DNA of 64,000 nt. Origin: Fluctibacter corallii. Its GTDB lineage: Bacteria > Pseudomonadota > Gammaproteobacteria > Enterobacterales > Alteromonadaceae. The stretch spans positions 620,259 through 684,258 of the forward strand of contig NZ_JAOWKX010000001.1 of assembly GCF_025751585.1 (NCBI RefSeq), read 5' to 3'. Both the position numbers and the translations under genes were made by a program. Below, one piece after another: positions 466-19,573 of the stretch. A model generated the notes under the pieces. The model saw only the letters and a program-made list of their open reading frames with translations, was not told the DNA's origin and did not search any database. Numbering within the stretch: the first letter of the stretch is position 1; every line of letters begins with the position of its first letter.

Positions 466-1821
466 CTACTCAAACAATTCGCTGTGCAGCTCTTTCACGA
501 CGTCGGTACTGTCTTTTGCATGTACAAGAAACGACATATTGTGTGGATTCGCGCCATAGCAAATCATACGCAGATTAAAGTTTTTTACTGCCGCAAAAAT
601 ACGAGACGAAACACCAGCAGCGCTGTTCATGTTATTCCCTACAACAGTGACTAGGTCGTAATCATTCTCAATCACCACCTCACAGATTTCTTTGAGTTCT
701 GCCAAGGTTTCTCGATTAAGGCGTTCCGCCACAGAGTTACTGGGATTATCTAACGTAAAGGCTACTGCTATTTCAGAGGTGGTAATAAGATCTACGCTCA
801 AGTTATGGTCGGCAATGATCGTAAACACTTTTTGCAGAAACCCTTGCGCATGCATCATTTTAGGTGTTTTAACGGTAACCATCACCTGTTCTTTACGGCG
901 TGTAATGGCTCGATAATGGGGCTCTTCTTTACAATCTCTGGCAATCCATGTTCCGCCCTTCTCAGGCTCTTTGCTAGACCCGACAAATACACGAATATCT
1001 TGCCGAAGCGCAGGCTCCATAGTAGCTGGGTGTAATACTTTTGCCCCGAACGTCGCCATTTCTGCGGCTTCTTCAAAACTCAATTCTGGTAAAGGCTTTG
1101 CTGCAGGCGTAATGCGAGGGTCGGTGGTGTAAACGCCAACAACATCCGTCCAAATTTCACAGGTTTGTGCATCCAACGCTTCGGCCAGTAACGCGGCGGT
1201 AAAGTCAGATCCGCCTCTTCCCAACGTCGTCGTGTTGCCTTGTGCATCAGCGCCAACAAACCCTTGTGTTACCAACACACAATCAGCCATTTCTGGACGT
1301 AACAATTCATTCGCCAGAGTACGAATTTCATTGAGTTGGGGGGCTGCTTCACCATAGGTATCATCTGTACGAAGTACTTTTCTTACATCAAAGTTTTCAG
1401 CTTTTACACCTATTCCTTTCAATACTTCGGTAAATAACAGAGAAGACATGCGCTCACCCAGTGACAGAATGGCATCTTTTAAATCTGGACGGTGCAGAAT
1501 TTCTTCATGGTGTGCTAACTCACGCGCGTGACTCAATAATTCATCAAGTTTGGCTTTGACGGGGGCGGGGTTTCCCAAGTCATTCAAAATGGCATATTCA
1601 ATCGCTTCAATTTGTTTAATCGTGGCATTGATCTGCTCTTTTGTGAGTGCTTTATGCGCCAGTTCAACCAGCAGGTTGGTAATTCCTGCCGCCGCACTCA
1701 CCACGACCACTCGGGTCGCTGAGTTTGCCCGAACAATGTTGGCACAATTAGACATCGCCCCAAAATTAGCGACACTTGTTCCACCAAATTTAGCGATATT
1801 TAAAGACAGATTGCTCACCAT
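466..1821 (-). CDS. lysC: Lysine-sensitive aspartokinase III
   Basis: Catalyses ATP-dependent phosphorylation of aspartate, the first step to lysine, threonine and methionine. At 451 aa it matches E. coli LysC (449 aa). The kinase domain opens with the KFGGTS motif (residues about 11-16), with TTLGRGGSD and IWTDVVGVYTTDPR in the middle and EMATFGAKVLHPAT near residue 265. The C-terminal third carries the tandem ACT domains (HNLSVDLITTSE, NLRMICYGANPHNMSF), where lysine acts as allosteric inhibitor in this class. There is no fused homoserine dehydrogenase. Only about 150 bp separate it from the upstream DUF192 gene. I could not fit a lysine riboswitch there, so feedback may be mainly at the enzyme level. 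Confidence 0.95.
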   Translation of the reverse strand: MVSNLSLNIAKFGGTSVANFGAMSNCANIVRANSATRVVVVSAAAGITNLLVELAHKALTKEQINATIKQIEAIEYAILNDLGNPAPVKAKLDELLSHARELAHHEEILHRPDLKDAILSLGERMSSLLFTEVLKGIGVKAENFDVRKVLRTDDTYGEAAPQLNEIRTLANELLRPEMADCVLVTQGFVGADAQGNTTTLGRGGSDFTAALLAEALDAQTCEIWTDVVGVYTTDPRITPAAKPLPELSFEEAAEMATFGAKVLHPATMEPALRQDIRVFVGSSKEPEKGGTWIARDCKEEPHYRAITRRKEQVMVTVKTPKMMHAQGFLQKVFTIIADHNLSVDLITTSEIAVAFTLDNPSNSVAERLNRETLAELKEICEVVIENDYDLVTVVGNNMNSAAGVSSRIFAAVKNFNLRMICYGANPHNMSFLVHAKDSTDVVKELHSELFE

Positions 1822-1908
1822 GTTTCCTTGTTTGTTATTTATGCATTTACGTTAGCAGTTTTTTCGCACGCAAGGCAGCGTTATTCCGCGGTTTATATGA
1901 ACATTTAA

Positions 1909-1914
1909 ATTATA
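1909..1914 (-). promoter_or_regulatory. Candidate lysC -10 box
   Basis: A perfect TATAAT on the minus strand lies about 90 nt upstream of the lysC start. No good -35 hexamer is visible at 16-18 nt, so the call rests on the -10 alone. Confidence 0.3.
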
Positions 1915-1972
1915 GTTTATTCCCAAAAATCACTGCCCACTAAGCGAGAATACTCTGCCATTATAGCGTCGA

Positions 1973-2419
1973 TTAGGGCTTTTTTTGCTCAATAACCCTA
2001 ATCTTATCGCCTTCTTTTACATTGTTTTTCTCGAACCACCCTTGATTCATTTCAAGCGCATAATGCACTTCACCACTGGATCCCACAGGCGTTAAGTCAT
2101 GAGGGGATAGCGGCTTAATATCCAAAATTTTTCCATCTGATTGAATAAATGCGACATCAAGGGGAATATAGGTGTTCTTCATCCACATACTGGCATAGCG
2201 ACTATGTTGAAAGTTAAACAACATACCGCAATCTGAGCACAGCGTTTTACGGTGCATTAACCCTTTATTTCGCTCTTCGTAGGTGCTTGCATATTCAACC
2301 GTAAGAGGTTGATTATTTACCTCTATTAGAATGGTCTTAGGTGGATTCTGAACCGCTTCAGCAAACCCACCCGTCATCGACATCAGAGCAAACACAAGTG
2401 TCGTTACAATGATTTGCAT
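1973..2419 (-). CDS. DUF192 family exported protein
   Basis: I chose the ATG that yields MQIIVTTLVFALMSMTGGFAEA, a clear signal peptide, because AGAGGG lies six bases before it. A longer non-ATG reading would put 19 polar residues before the signal. The mature part has the DUF192 hallmarks: TYEERNKGLMHRK, CGMLFNF, SMWMKNTYIPLDVAFI and a C-terminal YALEMNQGWF (about 148 aa in total). DUF192 proteins are small periplasmic beta-rich proteins of unsettled function. The start lies inside the end of the preceding lipoprotein gene (16-bp overlap in another frame), so the two are probably translationally coupled. Confidence 0.85.
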   Translation of the reverse strand: MQIIVTTLVFALMSMTGGFAEAVQNPPKTILIEVNNQPLTVEYASTYEERNKGLMHRKTLCSDCGMLFNFQHSRYASMWMKNTYIPLDVAFIQSDGKILDIKPLSPHDLTPVGSSGEVHYALEMNQGWFEKNNVKEGDKIRVIEQKKP

Positions 2420-2652
2420 GAGCATCCCTCTGTGCCGTCGCTCGTTTCCCAAGACTCGAAATGCCCTTGCTGGCACTGGGATTTAACCGCAAAACATTCA
2501 TTGGCACCATAACCAACCTGTGCGCCAGCTGCCTGCCCAACACCTTTGCCCAACACCTGCTTTATGTCAGTACTACTGCAACCCGCTGTTGTTAAGATTA
2601 AACCCGCGAACAAAATCGTCATACTTGTCGATACCCGTATACGAAATCCCAT
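2404..2652 (-). CDS. Small Cys-containing lipoprotein
   Basis: An 82-aa protein with a lipoprotein signal: positively charged start, hydrophobic stretch ILFAGLILT and lipobox LTTAGC (lipidated Cys about residue 25). The mature part has a Gly/Ala segment (GKGVGQAAGAQVGYGAN) and four further cysteines (ECFAVKSQC and GCSC), which could form disulfides in the periplasm. I do not recognise the family. It follows the DUF819 gene by 36 bp and overlaps the DUF192 gene, so the three probably share a transcript. The lipobox and coupling make it a real gene despite its size. Confidence 0.75.
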   Translation of the reverse strand: MGFRIRVSTSMTILFAGLILTTAGCSSTDIKQVLGKGVGQAAGAQVGYGANECFAVKSQCQQGHFESWETSDGTEGCSCKSL

Positions 2653-4041: not shown

Positions 4042-6654
4042 TTAAGCAATGTTTAGCGTAGGAATAATCTTCTCTTTCGCCGCTTCTTCTGCTTTCTTGA
4101 ATACGTCCATGTGGTCGAAGTTCAAGTAGCGGAAAATGTCAGCAGACATAGCATCAATCTTGCTCGCATATTCCATATACTCAGCCGCTGTAGGAATACG
4201 TCCAACAATTGCACCAACCGCCGCTAGCTCAGCAGACGTTAGGTAAACATTGGCTCCGTCACCTAAACGGTTAGGGAAGTTACGCGTAGAGGTAGACAAT
4301 ACCGTCGCACCCGGCTCAACACGCGCTTGGTTACCCATACACAATGAACATCCTGGCATTTCTGTACGCACACCTGCACGGCCATAAATGTTGTAATAGC
4401 CTTCTTCCATTAGCTGCGCTTTATCCATCTTCGTTGGTGGAGAAATCCACAGACGCGTAGGAAGCTGCCCTTTGTACTGCTCAAGCAGTTTACCCGCAGC
4501 ACGGAAGTGGCCGATGTTAGTCATACATGAACCGATGAAGACTTCGTGCACTTCGTCTCCAGCAACGTCAGAAAGGGTTTTCGCATCATCAGGGTCGTTA
4601 GGGCAACAAACGATTGGCTCGTTAATGTCGTCAAGATCGATTTCAATGATTTCCGCATATTCTGCGTCTTTGTCAGCTTCCATAAGTTCTGGATTTGCCA
4701 ACCACTCTTCCATTTTACGAGCACGACGCTCAAGTGTACGCGCATCGCCGTACCCTTCATTGATCATCCAACGTAACATGGTGATATTCGAGCGTAAGTA
4801 CTCAGAGATTGATTCTTCAGACAGTTTAATTGTACAGCCCGCAGCAGAGCGCTCAGCCGATGCATCAGACAGCTCAAATGCCTGCTCAACGGTAAGGTGC
4901 TCAAGGCCTTCAATTTCAAGAACACGACCAGAGAACGCATTGATTTTGCCTTTTTTCTCAACAGTGAGAAGGCCTTGTTTGATTGCGTACAATGGAATGG
5001 CGTGTACAAGGTCACGTAGCGTGATACCTGATTTCATTTTACCCTTGAATCGAACCAAAACCGATTCTGGCATATCGAGAGGCATTACACCTGTTGCCGC
5101 AGCGAACGCCACCAAACCTGATCCTGCTGGGAATGAAATACCCATAGGGAAACGCGTATGCGAGTCACCACCTGTTCCCACTGTGTCTGGCAACAACATA
5201 CGGTTTAGCCAAGAGTGAATGATACCGTCACCAGGACGAAGAGATACGCCACCACGGTTCATGATGAAGTCAGGCAATGTATGCTGAGTATCAATATCGA
5301 CTGGCTTAGGGTACGCCGCTGTGTGACAGAAAGACTGCATGGTTAAATCAGCCGTGAAGCCAAGGCACGCCAAGTCTTTCAGCTCGTCACGCGTCATTGG
5401 GCCTGTTGTATCTTGAGAGCCCACTGTGGTCATTTTTGGCTCACAATACGTGCCAGGACGAACACCGTCTACACCACACGCTTTACCCACCATCTTCTGA
5501 GCGAGTGTGAAGCCTTTACCTGAATCTTTTGGTTGCTCTGGCTTGCGGAACAAGTCAGACGCTTCTAAGCCTAGTGATTCACGGGCTTTTTCTGTTAAAC
5601 CACGACCGATAATCAAATTAATTCGACCGCCAGCACGAACTTCATCAAGAATCACTTTTGATTTGTAGCTGTATTCAGCCAGTACTTTACCCGTCTCGCT
5701 GTTGGTAATTTTGCCTTCATGCGGGAAGATGTCGATAACATCACCCATTTCCATTTCTTCCACGTCGGCTTCAAATACTAATGCACCTGCGTCTTCCATC
5801 GTGTTGAAGAAAATGGGAGCTACTTTACCACCGATACAAATACCGCCACCGCGCTTATTAGGCACGCCTGGTAAGTCTTCACCAAAGAACCAAAGTACCG
5901 AGTTAGTCGCAGATTTACGAGATGAACCCGTACCCACAACATCACCAACAAATGCAACAGGGTGACCTTTTGCTTTCACCTCTTCAACTTGCTTCATTGG
6001 GCCAACTTCGCCGTGTGCTTCGGGCTCAAGGCCTTCACGGGTCATTTTGTACATCGCGCGCGCGTGAAGTGGAATATCAGGACGAGACCATGCATCTGGT
6101 GCAGGTGACAAGTCATCCGTATTCGTTTCGCCAGTGACTTTAAATACGGTAGCCGTGATTTTTTCAGGTAAGTCTTTGCGATTTGTGAACCATTCAGCGT
6201 CAGCCCAAGATTGCATTACGCCTTTAGCATGCTCATTACCTGCTTTTGCTTTGTCTTCTACGTCATGGAACGCGTCAAACATTAGCAAGGTGTGCTTAAG
6301 TTCTTCTGCAGCAAGTGCCGCCAGTTTGTCATCATCAAGCAAAGATACTAGCGTTTCGATGTTGTATCCGCCATGCATGTTGCCTAGCAATTTTACAGCG
6401 TCTTCTTTAGAAATCAGAGGCGAAGATGTCTCGCCTTTTACAATCGCGCTCAAAAAGCCAGCTTTCACATATGCTGCTTCATCAACACCCGGAGGAACGC
6501 GTTCAGAAATCAGTTCTAGGATGTAATCCTCTTCACCTGCTGGCGGATTTTTTAATAGTTCAACCAGCTCTGCCACTTGCTCTGGATTCAGTGGTTTTGG
6601 TGGGACACCTTCTGCGGCACGTTCTTCTACGTGTTTACGATATGCTTCTAACAC
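4042..6654 (-). CDS. acnB: Aconitate hydratase B
   Basis: Bifunctional aconitase and 2-methylisocitrate dehydratase of the TCA and methylcitrate cycles, cytoplasmic, with a [4Fe-4S] cluster. The 870 aa match E. coli AcnB (865) from the first residues ([15 protein letters not shown]) through the N-terminal HEAT-like domain, swivel domain ([14 protein letters not shown]) and catalytic domains. Cluster ligands are visible in GSCMTNIGH and [10 protein letters not shown] near residues 710-775. The start is GTG, supported by GAGGA seven bases upstream. A TATACT -10-like element lies at 6722-6727, with a weak -35. It is monocistronic, ending at a strong terminator. Confidence 0.97.
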
Positions 6655-8062: not shown

Positions 8063-8530
8063 ATGAAAATAATTGGCGCTTACTTGTTTGCATGTTTATT
8101 GTCAGCAGCATGTACCTTTGTGCTCGCAAGCCTATTTCATACCCAATTTGTCCTTCATGAACTTGTAAAAATAGGCACCGAGATTACCTTTGGCACTCGA
8201 CTAGAAATGACCCTAAGCGACTTGTCAGGCCTGTTAATCGGCTATGGAAGTGTCATCTTTATTGCCTTGCTATCGGGCTTTCTAATTGTGGATGTAATTA
8301 AATGGAAATTGTCAGCAATACCATCATGGCGCTATGTCGTAGCTGGTGGACTATCAATGGCTATGGCTTTGAGTCTAATGCAACCACTACTGGGCGTCAC
8401 ACTGATAGCCGGCGCTAGAAGCGATTTCGGATTTGTGTGTCAAATAATTGCAGGACTGTGTGGAGGCTGGATATTTATTTTGCTGAAAAACAAAAGGAGG
8501 CAGCCGCCTCCTTTACAGAAAAATGCTTAG
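8063..8530 (+). CDS. Unknown small inner-membrane protein
   Basis: 155 aa, with four predicted membrane helices: residues about 3-25, a helix around SGLLIGYGSVIFIALLSGFLIV, a third in YVVAGGLSMAMALSLM, and a fourth near the C-terminus (IAGLCGGWIFILL). The last 14 residues are basic (KNKRRQ). I chose the ATG over an upstream TTG because neither has a strong ribosome site and the ATG gives a cleaner first helix. I do not recognise the family. Its 3' end overlaps that of the convergent outer-membrane gene by 4 bp, and a shared hairpin lies within its last codons. Confidence 0.65.
   Translation: MKIIGAYLFACLLSAACTFVLASLFHTQFVLHELVKIGTEITFGTRLEMTLSDLSGLLIGYGSVIFIALLSGFLIVDVIKWKLSAIPSWRYVVAGGLSMAMALSLMQPLLGVTLIAGARSDFGFVCQIIAGLCGGWIFILLKNKRRQPPPLQKNA
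8493..8514 (-). terminator. Terminator of the outer-membrane barrel gene
   Basis: A 9-bp GC-rich stem (AAAGGAGGC / GCCTCCTTT) with an AGCC loop, followed on the minus strand by a T-rich tail (TTTTGTTTTTC). It lies inside the final codons of the convergent plus-strand gene. Confidence 0.8.
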
Positions 8531-9114
8531 AAGCTGTAACGACCTGTTAGCATCCAAGTGTCATAGTCTTCGCCAGATTCGAAGCTAGCACCTGCAGAGA
8601 AGTTGTCAGTGAAGAAGTATTGACCACCTAGACGGTACAATTTGTATGACTCATCACCAATTTTCACAATACCCGCAGACGCGTCTAGCTCAACATTAGA
8701 TGCAACCATGCTTCTTACACCAAGGCGTAAACCCATTCCATTGTCATCATCACCATCAGACATATAGCCGTAAGATAACTTTGCTTCTGCGTGTTCAATA
8801 GAAACAATACCGTAAAAATCTGTACCTGTCGCAATTTCTTGGTTAAATCCAAGACCAATGCTCATCGTTTCATATTCAAACCTAAGTCCGTCGTCAGTTT
8901 TCGACATATCAGACACGCCCGCAGCCAAGAAGAAGTTTTCAGCAAACTCGAAAGAACCATTCAAAGCAAAACCGTCTGTATCGACATCAAGATCATCGAG
9001 AGATAAATCAGCGTAAGATGCTTCTACGTAGTTCCAGTTTGGCGTTTCAGCGGCAACGTGTGAAGAAAGAAGTGACGCCGCGATAAGTGAAGAAATAGAA
9101 ACAAGTTTTTTCAT
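8527..9114 (-). CDS. Outer-membrane beta-barrel protein (small, 8-stranded type)
   Basis: 195 aa with a signal peptide (MKKLVSISSLIAASLLSSHVAA). The rest alternates hydrophobic and polar residues with Asp/Gly-rich turns (LSLDDLDVDTDG, DGDDDNGMG), and the chain ends in RYSF; a C-terminal aromatic residue is the recognition signal for the BAM assembly machinery. The size fits an eight-stranded barrel of the OmpA/OmpW/opacity type. The acidic loops could bind cations, but that is inference. Ribosome site AAGGA lies nine bases before ATG, preceded by a hairpin. Confidence 0.82.
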   Translation of the reverse strand: MKKLVSISSLIAASLLSSHVAAETPNWNYVEASYADLSLDDLDVDTDGFALNGSFEFAENFFLAAGVSDMSKTDDGLRFEYETMSIGLGFNQEIATGTDFYGIVSIEHAEAKLSYGYMSDGDDDNGMGLRLGVRSMVASNVELDASAGIVKIGDESYKLYRLGGQYFFTDNFSAGASFESGEDYDTWMLTGRYSF

Positions 9115-9244: not shown

Positions 9245-9342
9245 GAAAAGAAAAAGGTGGGCCACCTCACTACCGTTAACTATCTTGGCAACCCACCCCT
9301 TACAACACGTTGAGTCGGACCAATTACTCAACGTTTACAGGC
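9245..9342 (-). ncRNA. Candidate Fur-controlled small RNA, about 98 nt
   Basis: No protein is encoded on this strand, but the layout is that of a bacterial sRNA. It has a promoter (see 9349-9377) and a perfect 9-bp stem (ACGTTGAGT / ACTCAACGT, 10-nt loop, positions 9307-9334). A G-rich single-stranded linker (AAGGGGTGGGTT) follows, then a terminator hairpin (9254-9266, AGGTG/CACCT) with the tail TTTTCTTTT. The arrangement resembles RyhB or PrrF iron-sparing sRNAs, but I see no RyhB core sequence. The start site is inferred as seven bases after the -10 box. It occupies most of the otherwise empty 9115-9523 gap. Confidence 0.5.
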
Positions 9343-9348
9343 AGATTC

Positions 9349-9377
9349 AATTTAATGCAAATGATAATGATTTGCAA
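9349..9377 (-). promoter_or_regulatory. Promoter with embedded Fur-box-like palindrome
   Basis: On the minus strand TTGCAA and TAAATT are separated by exactly 17 bp. The spacer holds a palindrome with TGCAAAT / ATTTGCA arms around GATAATG (9356-9376), which matches the GATAATGAT hexamer pattern of Fur sites. Fur binding here would block this promoter. Because TTGCAA is self-complementary, a rightward promoter toward the DUF1554 gene (TTGCAA, 16-17 bp, TATTAA) is also possible. Confidence 0.6.
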
Positions 9378-9523
9378 TACCAATCTTGAATTTTATTAAT
9401 CCCACCATTTCATCCATTCGTACCAGAACGTCTCACACTACCCACCTAACTGATAAATTCTCTTCCCTCGCGAGTCAGTGAAGACTCGTCAAATATTTTT
9501 ATGTCGTAAAATCAGGAACTAAA

Positions 9524-19114: not shown

Positions 19115-19552
19115 ATGGACTGGATTGTTGGAATTTTATTATTGCTTGCTGGCGTGATTGTCGGCTTCTTTATCGCGAAATATGTTTACGCAAACCAAAA
19201 CAAAAAAGCGAGTAAAGACACAGCCAACACACTCAAGCAAGTATTAGCACAGCAAGCGGCAAGTCATATTAATCAAAGCCGCATGATTGTAGATACCTTA
19301 AAACTTGAATGTGAAAAGCTTGAAGAAGAAATCAATGGTTACGAAACGCTTTTGCAAAGCGAAACCAAAAATGAAGGTGGCGCGAAGCTAAATTACTTTG
19401 GTGAACACGCGACGACTATCATTGGCAATCAGCAAAAGCGAGAAAAACGCGCTGCTAGTGCCACAGATGTGCAACCACGTGATTTCTCAATGGGTGGTTC
19501 GGGCCTGTTCGACGGCTCAGTAAATGAGCAAGTCGTCGACAAACAAAAATAA
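19115..19552 (+). CDS. zapG: Z-ring associated protein ZapG (YhcB, DUF1043)
   Basis: 145 aa. A single N-terminal membrane helix with small residues (DWIVGILLLLAGVIVGFFIAKYVY) is followed by a cytoplasmic coiled coil (NTLKQVLAQQAASHINQSRMIVDTLKLECEKLEEEINGYE) and a disordered tail. This is the DUF1043 plan. The E. coli homologue YhcB/ZapG links cell division with envelope synthesis. A good ribosome site (GGAG, six bases) precedes the ATG. The neighbourhood, zapE divergent and degQ/degS downstream, is the conserved gammaproteobacterial order. Confidence 0.92.
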   Translation: MDWIVGILLLLAGVIVGFFIAKYVYANQNKKASKDTANTLKQVLAQQAASHINQSRMIVDTLKLECEKLEEEINGYETLLQSETKNEGGAKLNYFGEHATTIIGNQQKREKRAASATDVQPRDFSMGGSGLFDGSVNEQVVDKQK

Positions 19553-19573
19553 TTAGTGAACTTTTTTCTGTAA

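Follow-up and report, generated by a model that had tools for sequence, protein, structure and literature searches.

RyhB of the enterobacteria (Rfam family RF00057) is a short RNA under the control of Fur that lowers the amounts of iron proteins, and sodB, sdhC and acnB are classical targets of iron-sparing RNAs. PrrF in Pseudomonas, NrrF in Neisseria, HrrF in Haemophilus and BrrF in Burkholderia are described as RNAs controlled by iron or by Fur. NrrF is reported to repress sdhCDAB (PMC5586341), and RyhB has also been reported in Shewanella (PMC8891985).

Closer to the genome of this study, Alteromonas macleodii is reported to respond to iron limitation with less of the iron-containing citric acid cycle enzymes and more of iron-free replacements, one of them being fumarase C, which goes up in Alteromonas under this condition; the main text of that report uses neither the word RyhB nor the word sRNA (PMC7190382). 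Small RNAs have been described from the same bacterial family as the RNA that I predict below. The main text on A. macleodii Te101 presents a primary transcriptome with 127 chromosomal sRNAs, and the CsrB-like RNAs Aln1a-c, which come from one 404-bp intergenic region and are proposed to bind CsrA (PMC5864184). The word iron is absent from the main text of that paper. The predicted RNA may be an unnamed entry among the Te101 sRNAs. A full-text search outside subscription papers and preprints found no paper on an iron-related small RNA in Alteromonas or in the family.

The window, by which I mean the whole 64-kb stretch of DNA that was analysed, very probably contains a small-RNA gene that stands on its own and is repressed by Fur; its product would act in trans, turning down sdhC and acnB and so sparing iron. 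Like RyhB, this RNA would be short, controlled by Fur and directed at iron proteins. The features of the gene and of its promoter are the following:

9246..9343, minus strand: predicted small RNA of about 98 nt (hit of covariance model R1 at 9343-9246, and fold; the exact ends are deduced)
9335..9343, minus strand: 5'-end seed UGCCUGUAA, complementary to the sdhC ribosome-binding region
9307..9334, minus strand: hairpin 1 with a 9-bp stem, 9334-9326 with 9315-9307 (fold; covariation in relatives)
9316..9325, minus strand: loop AAUUGGUCCG, predicted acnB seed (GGUC loop common to relatives; acnB pairing)
9246..9297, minus strand: intrinsic terminator with an 11-bp stem, 9297-9287 with 9266-9256, and a U-rich tail (fold; the helix covaries in relatives)
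9372..9377, minus strand: -35 element TTGCAA (sequence; homologues keep the register)
9349..9354, minus strand: -10 element TAAATT (sequence; AT-rich element, in equal register in homologues)
9356..9376, minus strand: predicted Fur-type operator, a 21-bp palindrome overlapping the promoter spacer (a Fur-like box precedes all 29 strong homologues)

The 9-bp stem-loop at 9307-9334, which an initial annotation had drawn from the letters of the DNA, is present on the minus strand with a loop of 10 nt. The computed anatomy departs from that annotation further downstream. The T-rich 3' end of the terminator is there as described (9255-9246); the stretch taken for a G-rich linker is, in the fold, the 5' arm of the 11-bp terminator stem. 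A short hairpin at 9268-9254, returned by a terminator scan, is an alternative of this stem, and terminator-like sites are not enriched near the RNA (four found against 2.8 expected). The 98-nt RNA folds with -32.8 kcal/mol (z -2.5), a value equalled in three of 200 shuffles; three bases of its 5' end are paired in the minimum free energy fold and free in the centroid. Read by eye, the 98 nt contain no AUG.

Searches with the Rfam models place the RNA apart from its functional counterparts. At the gathering score the 64-kb window gives no match; the segment 9200-9420, searched at E <= 10, lists 11 entries with neither RyhB nor PrrF among them, and nine homologue loci, searched at E <= 5, list eight, none of them on the RNA. 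The remark that no RyhB core is visible agrees with the absence of a RyhB match from the Rfam searches of the window and of the nine homologue loci. RyhB thus differs in having no Rfam match with the predicted RNA in sequence or structure, the seeds here being the 5' end and the GGUC loop. PrrF, NrrF, HrrF and BrrF are set apart through Rfam models, which for HrrF and BrrF take the place of a direct comparison of sequences. Judged by these searches, the predicted RNA is new as a separate sequence family, and of a known functional kind, that of the Fur-controlled iron-sparing RNAs.

The promoter was found where it had been claimed: on the minus strand, TTGCAA (9377-9372) is followed by a 17-nt spacer and TAAATT (9354-9349), and the Fur-like palindrome in that spacer, TGCAAATGATAATGATTTGCA, occupies 9356-9376. 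Against the 7-1-7 Fur consensus it agrees at 12 of 14 positions, the top score in the 64 kb and the sole one of that height. A palindrome pattern, derived from the 9356-9376 site itself, occurs at one place in the window when both strands are scanned, a count that was reached in one of 100 shuffles. With up to three mismatches allowed, the classical 19-bp Fur consensus is matched nowhere in the 64 kb, and a sigma-70 consensus promoter scan did not list the TTGCAA/TAAATT promoter. For these two reasons the site is unconvincing by sequence alone, and it is conservation in other genomes that makes the predicted small-RNA site convincing.

A scan of the window's own genome gave related sites, with three mismatches to the palindrome pattern, at 16 loci, with frames listed for nine. 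One such site lies 44 nt before a gene (L104) with TonB-receptor domains most like those of siderophore receptors, and another 28 nt before a gene (L099) resembling the diaminobutyrate decarboxylase of siderophore pathways; these names are resemblances with NCBIfam scores under the curated cut-offs, and the two were chosen from the nine loci read out of 16. At L097 and L105 the related sites are far from iron genes, and the remaining loci of the nine have no obvious iron gene. A reading of L099 as isochorismate synthase was rejected in favour of the decarboxylase, the NCBIfam resemblance. Because of the sites before L104 and L099 I read the palindrome as a Fur site, to which iron-loaded Fur would bind. 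The palindrome might instead be used by another metal regulator of the Fur superfamily, as the assignment to Fur is made from sequence, two of the 14 consensus positions depart and the 19-bp consensus is unmatched; however, the related sites before siderophore-type genes in the same genome and the predicted targets, which are iron enzymes, argue for Fur itself, and I consider another regulator very unlikely.

Relatives of the RNA were sought in several ways. In a BLASTN search of 395 family genomes the best matches came from genus g25, which is Alteromonas, and the top group also included one g51 genome (G050); for counting members the search was dropped, as short Fur-box matches dominate (212 of 395 genomes at E <= 0.1), and it brought in one member, G113. 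A DNA pattern searched in a named collection gave 18 stretches, of which 16 are from Alteromonas, one is from Aestuariibacter and one is from a Pirellulales metagenome bin; the last has no Fur-like box. Alignment A1 holds 16 RNAs (15 from Alteromonas or g25, one from Aestuariibacter) with two helices, aligned without structure, and model R1 was built from it with the window sequence left out. Within the window its top match (26.3 bits, E 2.2e-4) covers 9343-9246 of the minus strand, and since the site had been picked from the sequence before the model existed, this match is an independent test. The only other window match, at 19502-19567 on the plus strand (14.3 bits, E 0.18), is probably due to chance.

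In the 395 family genomes R1 matched 42 at E <= 1 (44 places), and its strong matches (E <= 3.6e-5) fall in 29 genomes, 27 of g25 and two of g5. The Fur-like box ATTNTCATT, which lies outside the model, is found within 45 nt upstream of every one of the 29 strong hits; the 15 weaker hits (E <= 1) were dropped, the box standing before none of the 11 that were read. This family-wide search used stricter filters than the search of the window and did not report the window's own genome, which was found genome-wide by model R2 alone, with the RNA of that genome in the training set. Applied to 40 genomes, one per genus, R2 matched 23 at E <= 3 (38 places) and added g38 (G037, E 2.5e-10) and g6 (G005, E 0.013), in each of which a Fur-like box precedes the RNA. 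Eighteen of the 38 places were inspected (two of them blank), and apart from the own genome new members came only from G037 and G005; the G050 hit falls, out of register, on a previously found RNA, and another hit of the own genome (C12:281584, E 0.0115) was dropped because no Fur-like box accompanies it.

A pattern scan for the Fur-like box, the 5' end and the GGUC loop matched 55 of the 395 genomes, against 10 with the reversed control. By eye I judged 43 of the 55 to be members and set 12 aside as chance-like, G016, G326 and G093 from their full loci and the other nine from the matched string. Members outside the pattern-scan set are G202, G328 and G310, from R1, and G113 from BLASTN. The by-eye reading thus gives members in 47 of 395 sampled family genomes and in eight of 52 genera, with the RNA in 29 of the 31 genomes of g25; two g51 loci (L007 and L024) have no R1 match and were counted on account of their Fur-like box, GGUC loop and terminator. 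In the wider order the scan matched 10 of 343 genomes outside the family (of 375), against seven with the reversed control, and no member was seen among the 10 matched strings, in a scan that would miss more diverged forms of the RNA. A plasmid collection gave three matches, at E 0.5. Five loci of g51, g6 and g15 (L007, L024, L109, L167 and L168) make up a subtype with 5' end TGCACTAC and terminator loop UUCUCCAU, and the g51 RNAs carry an extra hairpin between hairpin 1 and the terminator.

Judged from the alignments, both helices covary. In A1, 11 of the 22 pairs are changed on both sides, nine in the terminator and two of 11 in hairpin 1. In A3, the fit to R1 (28 of 30 given sources matched; 27 distinct rows including the window RNA), this rises to 18 of 22 pairs with seven of 11 in hairpin 1, 97.3% of the cells are paired, and the covariation score is reached by none of 500 shuffles; since A3 was fitted to the structure, it leans towards it. 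A further alignment, A4, has the 3' arm of the window shifted by one base. The covariance search proposed in the initial annotation thus did find compensatory changes in the 9307-9334 stem, and with the R1 match, the covarying helices and the 29 of 29 Fur-like boxes, the Fur box, stem and terminator are conserved in relatives. Prediction and covariation together describe a stand-alone short RNA with a terminator and a conserved structure.

The neighbourhoods were compared by BLASTP (E 1e-8, up to 5 kb per side, less in short loci) between the window and 25 members. Neighbours are largely conserved within Alteromonas and mostly different between genera. Those of the window, an outer-membrane protein gene and a DUF1554 gene, are common to none of the 25 other loci, and because the DUF1554 gene is absent there, it is unlikely that the palindrome serves this gene alone, a possibility that the initial annotation had named as refuting the small RNA. 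The more general form of this objection is that the element acts in cis, either as a leader or attenuator of the outer-membrane protein gene (8527-9114), which lies on the RNA's strand 132 nt downstream of it, or as an operator for the divergent DUF1554 gene alone, and the palindrome could indeed also affect rightward transcription. In g5, g6, g15, g51 and one g10 locus, too, the next gene is on the strand of the RNA. However, these genes differ from the outer-membrane protein gene, a complete terminator separates that gene from the RNA, and in 13 loci of Alteromonas and Aestuariibacter the first shared gene downstream lies on the other strand, which also holds for g38 and two g10 loci. For the same-strand loci of g5, g6, g15, g51 and g10, the terminator and the changing neighbours alone counter a leader role. 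Overall, action purely in cis seems extremely unlikely, and a free-standing gene remains the preferred reading.

Some observations on these neighbourhoods are recorded here in their own right. In L040 an unshared frame of 147 codons overlaps the RNA. A fumarase gene together with a small gene is seen repeatedly in g10 and g15, and the broad cluster c6 in several genera; at L138, L139, L141 and L167 (g10 and g15) the RNA is near a class II fumarase gene, which in L167 is PF10415 by domain scan. By eye, a second Fur-like sequence (L167:2226-2252) stands before the operon of the small gene and fumC in g15. On the plus strand of the window, a stem-loop with a weak T run (9470-9489) lies some 35 nt ahead of the DUF1554 start.

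For target prediction, sodB, sdhC and acnB were chosen beforehand and their leaders read in 13 genomes from eight genera. Among 117 tests (three genes, three RNA parts, 13 genomes), 26 gave p <= 0.05 where about six are expected; the tests are interdependent, as related genomes repeat each other. In the window's own genome, the 5' end UGCCUGUAA is a 9-nt complement of the sdhC ribosome-binding region, and none of 400 leader shuffles is as good. Compared with the 98 leaders of this genome, which were called by a simple start rule and include sdhC, acnB and sodB, sdhC has the sole 9-nt run and ranks second in energy.

In the ten TGCC-type genomes the sdhC segment ACAGGCA, which complements the 5' end of the RNA, stops 6-7 nt short of the GTG start. 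The own genome and the two g5 genomes pair over an unbroken 9 nt, five Alteromonas genomes and G037 over 8 nt, while in G163 (g10) 6 nt and 4 nt flank one mismatch, so that complementarity to sdhC is seen in 10 of the 13 genomes, nine of them with a run of 8-9 nt. For the own genome, G163 and G037 no shuffle out of 400 per leader is as good, while the remaining seven TGCC-type genomes have p values of 0.010-0.060. At base 8 of the RNA the pair with sdhC reads A-U in the own genome (G000) and G037, and U-A in Alteromonas and g5; this switch preserves the pair through a change on each side, concerns one position and may be a single event. Non-cognate pairs are sometimes equal or better, as with the own RNA and the G163 leader, or the g5 RNA and the G099 leader. 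The conservation of ACAGGCA, seen in genomes that carry the RNA, could be that of an ordinary ribosome-binding sequence. In the TGCAC-type genomes G005, G050 and G095 the sdhC pairing is absent, and both sides have changed. In the own genome, TACAGGCA occurs 3-9 nt before ATG or GTG at 41 places, against three in the reversed control, an excess to which I give no weight since the control differs in composition; these places lead to 11 open frames of at least 50 codons, four of which start within 21 codons after a stop, one being sdhC.

The loop of hairpin 1 points to a second target, which is itself encoded in the window:

4042..6654, minus strand: acnB, predicted target, with GTG start at 6654 (NCBIfam TIGR00117; leader GGACCAA complements the loop)

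In each of the five Alteromonas acnB leaders tested, the loop ACGGUCUUGG with its flanks has a complement of 10-14 nt (p <= 0.007), situated some 47 nt upstream of the start; this distal site suggests a different mode for acnB in Alteromonas, perhaps messenger decay. In the own genome the computed complementarity is less strong than for sdhC: GGACCAA at the ribosome-binding site pairs over 7 nt with UUGGUCC (p 0.028), which places acnB sixth in energy among the 98 leaders. With G163, G037 and G095 (p 0.025-0.050), the loop and acnB are complementary at p <= 0.05 in nine of 13 genomes; in G116, G053, G005 and G050 the pairing is not significant. Across six Alteromonas genomes the loop complement CCAAGACCGT shows no enrichment (44 places against 85 in the reversed control), and two of the 42 places read are acnB leaders. 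By computation the RNA thus pairs with iron-enzyme messengers near their starts, for sdhC in 10 and for acnB in nine of the 13 genomes. As a separate observation, CCAAGACCGT is also present in an Alteromonas genome (G255:C13:514734-514743, L254), 82 nt before a gene that by eye resembles sufB.

The picture for sodB differs between genera. Its leader holds a 10-nt complement of the RNA 5' end in two Alteromonas genomes, and in G005, G050 and G095 the sodB ribosome-binding segment AUGGAGAA is a 9-nt complement of the terminator loop UUCUCCAU. As a target in the own genome sodB was rejected, no significant pairing being found.

It could be that the RNA is real and controlled by Fur while its main function is other than iron sparing through sdhC and acnB, the seeds acting on other messengers. 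The tests covered 13 genomes and three genes chosen beforehand, the acnB match of the own genome is modest (the sixth of 98), and one other leader of that genome pairs better with the loop, over 10 nt; it belongs to L101, a frame (1363-2608, plus strand) that looks proA-like by eye, and its match, the best of the 98, is either chance or a target. Against this stand the sdhC complementarity, which is seen in 10 of 13 genomes and includes one switched pair, and the 10-14-nt loop complement in five of five Alteromonas acnB leaders, and I regard a main function elsewhere as unlikely.

The distribution of these matches also allows a more tentative idea, namely that the RNA is modular, with a single-stranded part for each iron enzyme: the 5' end for sdhC, the loop of hairpin 1 for acnB and, among the TGCAC-type genera, the terminator loop for the sodB ribosome-binding site. 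Modules would be swapped between lineages and seeds would change with their targets, the Fur promoter and the fold staying constant. I consider this possible rather than probable, and have lowered my estimate slightly because the sdhC switch rests on a single position.

Returning to iron sparing through sdhC and acnB, the following course of events is proposed. With plentiful iron, Fur would occlude the palindrome between the -35 and -10 elements and block transcription. With scarce iron, the RNA of about 98 nt would be made, ending at the terminator; its 5' end UGCCUGUAA would pair with the ribosome-binding region of sdhC, the first succinate dehydrogenase gene, and its loop UUGGUCC with that of acnB, which encodes aconitase B. 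With ribosome binding on both messengers masked, translation of these iron-rich enzymes would go down and iron would be spared. I infer transcription, binding by Fur, pairing in the cell, repression and any need for Hfq from the computed features. The proposal of a Fur-repressed iron-sparing sRNA in the initial annotation is supported by the conservation, the covariation and the Fur-like boxes; the linker in its anatomy was misread, and it named no target, so that the target model is new here.

Much of the ocean is limited by iron, and Alteromonas is a copiotroph common in marine waters. The predicted RNA, similar in kind to RyhB and PrrF and separate from them in sequence, is a candidate for the regulator behind iron sparing in Alteromonas. 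It offers a concrete candidate for the low-iron switch of this genus, with named seeds and targets, and as the predicted seeds of this iron-sparing RNA differ between genera, changes of seed and target may be traced together.
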